Shown piece after piece: positions 19,917 to 20,481 of a stretch of 36,263 nucleotides of DNA. The number at the start of each line of letters is the position of its first letter. Position 1 is the stretch's first letter. A program made the position numbers and the translations under genes. The DNA is from a bacterium (GTDB lineage Bacteria; Patescibacteriota; CG2-30-54-11), in NCBI GenBank assembly GCA_029573015.1, contig JAKQHK010000050.1:1-36263 (forward strand). The letters run 5' to 3'. The notes beneath the pieces are model-generated. The model made no database searches. It had not been told where the DNA came from and worked only from the letters and a program-made list of their open reading frames with translations.

Positions 19917-20118
19917 ATCTGTTTCTCCTTTTAGGCTATAGGCTGTAAGCGACAGGCTATATGCTCATGGCTCAAAGCTAATTGCTAACAGATGATCAGG
20001 CAGAAACCTTTGGTTAACGTATATCCACCTTCGCTTTGCCACGGTGGATTGTTCGCTGGCACACCCTAGCTACTTCTCTCGATGAACATCCAAACCATTT
20101 TTATCATCCGCATTCGTC

Positions 20119-20140
20119 CAGCCCGATGTACATCGGGCTG
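20119..20140. repeat. Perfect 22-bp palindrome in thrS leader
   Basis: CAGCCCGATGT|ACATCGGGCTG. Confidence 0.9.
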
Positions 20141-20159
20141 ATCCTCAGCGCAGGCTCAC

Positions 20160-20312
20160 AAAAAAACTCTCACCCCAAGGTTATCCTTGAGACGAGAGCT
20201 ATACTCGTGGTTCCACTCAATCATTTGTTCGAATTATTCGAACCTTTAATGTTTGTCACGAGGGTTGTCTCCCCCGGTTTGTTAACCAGGTTGGTGAATC
20301 CTGATCAAACCG
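20160..20312 (-). ncRNA. T-box riboswitch (leader of thrS) with transcription attenuator
   Basis: Minus strand: Stem I CGGTTTG...CAAACCG with inner CAGG-ATTCACCAA-CCTG; hairpin GTTCGAA-TAA-TTCGAAC; antiterminator TTGAG-TGGAACC-ACGAG-TATAGCT-CTCGT-CTCAA; terminator CTCTC..CTCAAGG-ATAA-CCTTGGG..GAGAG-TTTTTTT. Confidence 0.92.
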
Positions 20313-20317
20313 CGCTT

Positions 20318-20345
20318 ATTGTACCGCAACCCGTTTGGAATGCAA
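20318..20345 (-). promoter_or_regulatory. Sigma70-type promoter of the thrS T-box leader
   Basis: TTGCAT-16 bp-TACAAT on the minus strand just upstream of Stem I. Confidence 0.7.
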
Positions 20346-20370
20346 GCACTATCTTGGAGACAGAAGAGAA

Positions 20371-20405
20371 GGGGTTAGGGGTTAGGGGTTAGGGGTTAGG
20401 GGTTA
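20371..20405. repeat. (GGGGTTA)5 heptanucleotide repeat
   Basis: Five exact head-to-tail copies. Confidence 0.97.
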
Positions 20406-20481
20406 GGTATATGGTACAAGCAACAACAATTCGTAACAATGATTAACCAGCCATAACTGCACGTTCAATTGATTCGTATGA

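Follow-up and report, generated by a model that had tools for sequence, protein, structure and literature searches.

In T-box riboswitches, of which four classes are distinguished, tRNA binding is augmented by the IDTM, Stem II or the two together (PMC10482949). Class I combines both modules, Class II has only the IDTM, and the IDTM is missing from Classes III and IV (PMC10482949). Class III requires Stem II, and the Classes III and IV are mostly translational (PMC10482949). Speed is the reason given for the general dependence of transcriptional T-boxes on the IDTM, and a short Stem I is said to need Stem II (PMC10482949, PMC7583486). A truncated Stem I barely binds tRNA without Stem II according to a review (PMC7583486), and this, like the dependence on the IDTM, counts against the reading that we give here of a thrS leader found in the window, the whole stretch of 36,263 nucleotides that was analysed.

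With Class III, as known from Nocardia farcinica and from Mycobacterium ileS (PMC10482949, PMC7583486), the window element has in common a short Stem I without the IDTM, an apical-loop specifier with a purine after it, and the discriminator. However, Class III is mostly translational, with a loop of 5-6 nt and a needed Stem II, whereas the window element has a terminator, a 9-nt apical loop and no Stem II. The initial annotation had likened the leader to this actinobacterial ultrashort class. The likeness holds for the ultrashort Stem I, but Stem II is also absent, so the element is more than that class with a terminator added.

With Class II, exemplified by Bacillus glyQS (PMC10482949), it shares the lack of Stem II, the transcriptional mode, the strong codon-anticodon pairing and the discriminator. 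The glyQS element has a long Stem I with an elbow-binding IDTM and responds to glycine, whereas the window has a 38-nt Stem I from which the IDTM is absent and a codon for threonine. With Class I, exemplified by Bacillus tyrS and modelled by RF00230, it shares the specifier, Stem III, the UGGN bulge and the antiterminator/terminator logic, but not the long Stem I, the IDTM, the internal specifier loop or Stem II. Its end-to-end match to RF00230 in a local search reaches 35.8 bits (E 2.7e-6) against the Rfam gathering cut-off of 93 bits, which is a detection threshold and no biological feature. An Rfam scan of the window at the gathering threshold missed the T-box and found a tRNA alone.

Because the window element has neither the IDTM nor Stem II and yet is of the transcriptional kind, it fits none of the four published classes. 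We think it likely that it represents a fifth T-box architecture, with a short Stem I, an apical specifier, no IDTM and no Stem II, that attenuates transcription in Patescibacteria for the G-C-rich codons of Thr (ACC), Gly (GGC) and Pro (CCC) and holds tRNA by codon-anticodon pairing and the 3′ end only. The main text of the TBDB paper (PMC7778990) mentions Class I matches with truncated Stem I, leaves CPR unnamed and describes no class without both the IDTM and Stem II. No paper joining T-box riboswitches with CPR or Patescibacteria was found in the open PMC literature, which is weak evidence, with most subscription papers and the TBDB contents outside this scope. With an element that has a terminator but neither module, a construct of ~130 nt allows a direct test of how small a tRNA-sensing RNA can be.

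Leader anatomy and match to the host tRNAs

The features of the leader are collected in Table 1. Every sequence element named in the initial annotation, from Stem I and the spacer hairpin to the antiterminator and the terminator ending in seven Ts, is present on the minus strand, and the covariance match that it had called for was obtained, albeit below the gathering score. Read from its sequence, the element is a T-box by every defining feature checked, namely the discriminator, the specifier stem, the bulge match and the exclusive terminator.

Table 1. Features of the thrS leader and gene, in positions of the window
Feature	Position	Strand	Basis or remark
Whole leader, promoter to T-run	20345-20160	minus	Upstream of thrS
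Weak -35-like TTGCAT	20340..20345	(-)	Sequence; 3/6 consensus positions
-10-like TACAAT	20318..20323	(-)	Sequence; 16-nt spacing from TTGCAT
Ultrashort Stem I hairpin, 38 nt, CGGTTTG/CAAACCG around CAGG-ATTCACCAA-CCTG	20275..20312	(-)	Fold; upper stem covaries across six leaders
Specifier ACC (Thr), then AA, in apical loop ATTCACCAA	20293..20295	(-)	ACY-AA invariant in six thrS-associated leaders
Small hairpin at Stem IIA/B position	20260..20275	(-)	Fold; RF00230 alignment puts IIA/B columns there
Stem III hairpin GTTCGAA-TAA-TTCGAAC	20227..20243	(-)	RF00230 alignment, fold
Antiterminator, A1 TTGAG/CTCAA and A2 ACGAG/CTCGT	20187..20220	(-)	RF00230 alignment; constrained fold
T-box bulge TGGAACC	20209..20215	(-)	7-nt UGGNACC type between helices A1 and A2
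Intrinsic terminator, 16-bp stem, ATAA loop, seven Ts	20160..20200	(-)	Terminator scan (hairpin 20200-20165), fold
thrS, threonine-tRNA ligase, 602 aa	18108..19916	(-)	Pfam: tRNA_SAD, class II core and anticodon-binding domains

Stem I and Stem III are separated by a gap of ~30 nt, in which the S-turn motif was not found and Stem II is absent. Nor is any IIA/B pseudoknot visible in the window leader. The spacing from the specifier to the bulge is 77 nt, compared with 90-126 nt in the form with Stem II. An A-rich string precedes Stem III, and AA follows it.

The promoter is the weak point of the leader reading. The proposed TTGCAT-16-TACAAT is present as sequence, and G001, a sister genome, has TTGCAA-16-TACAAT in the equivalent place before Stem I (read by eye, L066/L098), but the -35 box is weak and went unreported by a promoter scan of the window. 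TACAAT also occurs near the start of a glyS T-box in G002, another genome of the window's family.

The 5′ arm of the terminator includes both 3′ strands of the antiterminator, so the two structures are mutually exclusive. The whole leader folds with a z of -4.2, and none of 200 shuffles was equally stable. The best fold, with the terminator, is calculated at -53.0 kcal/mol versus -39.0 kcal/mol for the constrained antiterminator fold, a difference of 14. Hence, the default state without tRNA would be OFF, as expected of a transcriptional T-box.

A strong terminator with an alternative pairing in the leader would suit attenuation by a leader peptide, in which ribosomes stall at Thr codons. We give this reading next to no credence: the sequence read by eye has no Thr-rich reading frame before the terminator, and the UGGAACC, Stem III and the conserved hairpin loop would go unexplained.

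The T-box reading is in accord with the tRNAs of the host. Three tRNA-Thr genes were found in the genome (GGU, UGU and CGU) and all three end in UCCA, with the U73 that had been predicted from the TGGA bulge. Among the tRNAs found in the genome, U73 occurs otherwise in tRNA-Gly and tRNA-Cys only. The UGGA bulge is complementary to the UCCA end of all three tRNA-Thr, and ACC makes full Watson-Crick pairing with the GGU anticodon only. Thus, the codon and the bulge jointly specify tRNA-Thr(GGU). By pattern search, the corresponding tRNAs of the two sister genomes, G001 and G002, have U73 too.

From these features we infer that the leader binds tRNA-Thr, senses its charging and makes thrS expression respond. 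The nascent leader would fold the 38-nt hairpin, the loop of which would offer ACC to the GGU anticodon of tRNA-Thr. When this tRNA is uncharged, its UCCA end would pair with the UGGA bulge and stabilise the antiterminator, and RNA polymerase would read into thrS. With charged or no tRNA, the more stable terminator would form and transcription would stop. Because the leader has neither the elbow-binding IDTM nor Stem II, its only recognisable tRNA contacts would be the codon-anticodon pairing and the 3′ end, and the G-C-rich codon pairing probably makes these two contacts sufficient.

In E. coli, thrS is autoregulated by the binding of ThrS to an operator resembling the anticodon arm of tRNA-Thr. 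As a hairpin leader preceding the same gene, the window element could act likewise, with the enzyme repressing its own message. However, the loop here has the codon ACC and no anticodon (GGU, UGU or CGU), and the E. coli mechanism works on translation at the ribosome site, whereas the AAGGAG ribosome site of the window lies ~230 nt past the terminator. Such an operator, which would leave the T-box discriminator and the U73 match unexplained, is very unlikely. The window element is instead very probably a transcription-attenuating T-box of minimal build controlling thrS; the covariance match, the terminator, the relatives and the tRNAs all support this reading, first put forward in the initial annotation.

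Conservation and covariation of the thrS leaders

The same leader stands immediately before thrS in G001. Equivalent hairpins with the ACC specifier occur in thrS leaders of three other families (G054, G236 and G339), and one with ACU precedes an operon of G017 that has thrS as its third gene. The ACC specifier and the UGGA bulge are found again in the thrS leaders of relatives. In the G339 leader, an additional hairpin that lacks the S-turn motif stands where Stem II would be. Weighing against our reading, G002 of the same family carries a T-box of another build before thrS (L068), and a strict pattern, too strict for a census, matched only G000 and G001 among 389 genomes.

The six Stem I hairpins are CAGG-ATTCACCAA-CCTG in the window and, in the others, TGTCAG-TCCTCACCAAC-CTGACA, GCGG-ACTCACCAA-CCGC, TTGTGT-TCACCAA-ACACAA, AAGCG-AGTACCAAC-CGCTT and GGAG-ACTAACTAA-CTCC. 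In these six thrS-associated leaders from five families, the ACY-AA loop is invariant and the stems differ in sequence yet pair. Across the alignment of the six (A2), 81% of the stem cells are paired, and each of the six stem pairs tested changes on both sides somewhere. The covariation score was reached by 0/500 shuffles, and the pairing falls to 19-38% in slid versions of the alignment. This covariation, for which a search of related genomes had been proposed, appears strong but not exhaustive, as seen in six sequences and one alignment.

The window element has a low RF00230 score, and its Stem I, Stem II and IIA/B pseudoknot are each either reduced or missing, as could be the case in a decaying T-box of which the discriminator and the terminator persist. 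A degenerate Stem I would then have lost its selection of tRNA, and the terminator would be leaky or unregulated. Against such decay, covarying stems surround an invariant codon in the six leaders, the bulge base and the codon agree with the tRNA, and equally short glyS T-boxes occur in other genomes (L267 and L269). We therefore hold decay to be improbable and keep to a working T-box as the preferred reading.

That the leader controls thrS was part of the initial annotation. In its favour, thrS lies downstream, and the G001 leader is adjacent to its gene, ending ~25 nt before thrS, with the 72% identical ThrS orthologue encoded directly after the T-box. Unlike in G001, the start codon in the window is ~244 nt past the T-run. 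Since G001 has no such gap, the stretch 19935-20150 between the terminator and thrS is probably an insertion.

This stretch carries a hairpin, AATCCACC...GGTGGAT, a similar form of which is found in other genomes of the phylum, together with a series of TATAGCCT-like words. At 20370-20407, immediately upstream of the leader, a 7-mer (AGGGGTT on the plus strand) is repeated perfectly in tandem, in 5.4 copies. For the window ThrS, Pfam reported no TGS domain.

Short T-boxes across the phylum

The phylum sample comprises 389 genomes of at least 156 families, with genome sizes of 0.4-2 Mb. RF00230 at E <= 1e-4 has matches in 126 of these genomes, and matches above the gathering cut-off in 13; the standard Rfam cut-off misses most such elements in CPR. 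By our own count, roughly 71 of the ~150 RF00230 matches listed for the phylum span 175 nt or less. The same holds for 2/88 matches in a non-CPR comparison set of 15 genomes, mostly Chloroflexota with two Clostridia, and one of these two is clipped by a contig end.

The short T-boxes were read individually, with their downstream genes identified by NCBIfam. The codon in the apical loop corresponds to the gene as AUC/ileS, GUC/valS, GAC/aspS, AAC/AspRS-type, UAC/tyrS, CCC/proS, GGC/glyS and ACC/thrS, and is mostly followed by A or AA. Under a fixed rule, the codon agrees with the downstream synthetase in 27/37 short T-boxes, a count that is not blind as the loops were seen before the rule was set. 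Over 20,000 relabellings of the genes, the matches averaged 6.1 and never exceeded 14; the same rule applied to shuffled leaders gave a mean of 2.2.

Moreover, in 35/37 of them the fourth base of the bulge agrees with the expected discriminator base, compared with a mean of 15.7 and a maximum of 26 when relabelled. A T run follows downstream in 34/37 by a permissive test. Predicted ultrashort-Stem-I T-boxes with terminators are recurrent across the sampled Patescibacteria. The ultrashort transcriptional form is widespread in the phylum and no single case, a point that the initial annotation had missed. Charging-sensitive control of synthetase genes would thereby extend to many CPR bacteria.

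The Ile, Val, Asp, Asn and Tyr T-boxes of other CPR genomes resemble Class III with a terminator, and a positional search found the S-turn motif of Stem II in all 25 of them. Among the Thr, Gly and Pro T-boxes it was found in 1/12, the single match (L091) sitting in the IIA/B hairpin loop. The split has a p of 1.4e-8, with shared ancestry not corrected for. The lack of the S-turn in the Thr, Gly and Pro group thus fits the published idea that glycine T-boxes spare Stem II through strong codon-anticodon pairing (PMC7583486). The smallest element of this group is that of glyS at L267, where Stem I through antiterminator takes up 108 nt.

AspRS-type genes stand under AAC (Asn) at L229, L260 and L265 and under GAC (Asp) at L046, L272 and L275. 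The genes at L229 and L265 have matches to the non-discriminating AspRS family, in keeping with a sensing of tRNA-Asn made through Asp-tRNA(Asn). At L226 and L247, and also at L230 and L248, a small unknown ORF follows a short T-box whose loop contains an Arg-like CGC; at L226 and L247, a DNA polymerase IV-type gene is next, an odd target for a T-box. A tandem pair of T-boxes stands upstream of glyS in G192 (L233).

An apparent reciprocal truncation was also seen. At L064 (glyS of G002), L068, L225, L241, L245 and L251 (aspS), the transcript seems to start at a hairpin of elbow-binding type (AGCGA...UGNRA); the specifier lies further downstream, and the 5′ basal strand of Stem I seems to be lacking. 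The aspS cases have -10-like boxes ~8-11 nt upstream. L064 and L068 had been considered as Cys-specific ultrashort T-boxes (TGC-AA), but this was rejected, as L064 precedes glyS. Their TGCAA is better read as half of the elbow-binding T-loop motif, and both were left out.

The CPR setting suggested in the initial annotation is consistent with a phylum of very many families and small genomes. Ribosomal protein L30 is encoded in G001 and G002 of the window's family and absent in G003. To our knowledge, this protein is unusual for CPR, and given its presence the family may be an atypical CPR branch. Other contigs of the window's genome carry four more T-boxes with a longer Stem I (L001-L004), upstream of genes for a 2-oxoacid:ferredoxin oxidoreductase-type subunit and a GNAT acetyltransferase and of trpE-like and proC-like genes.
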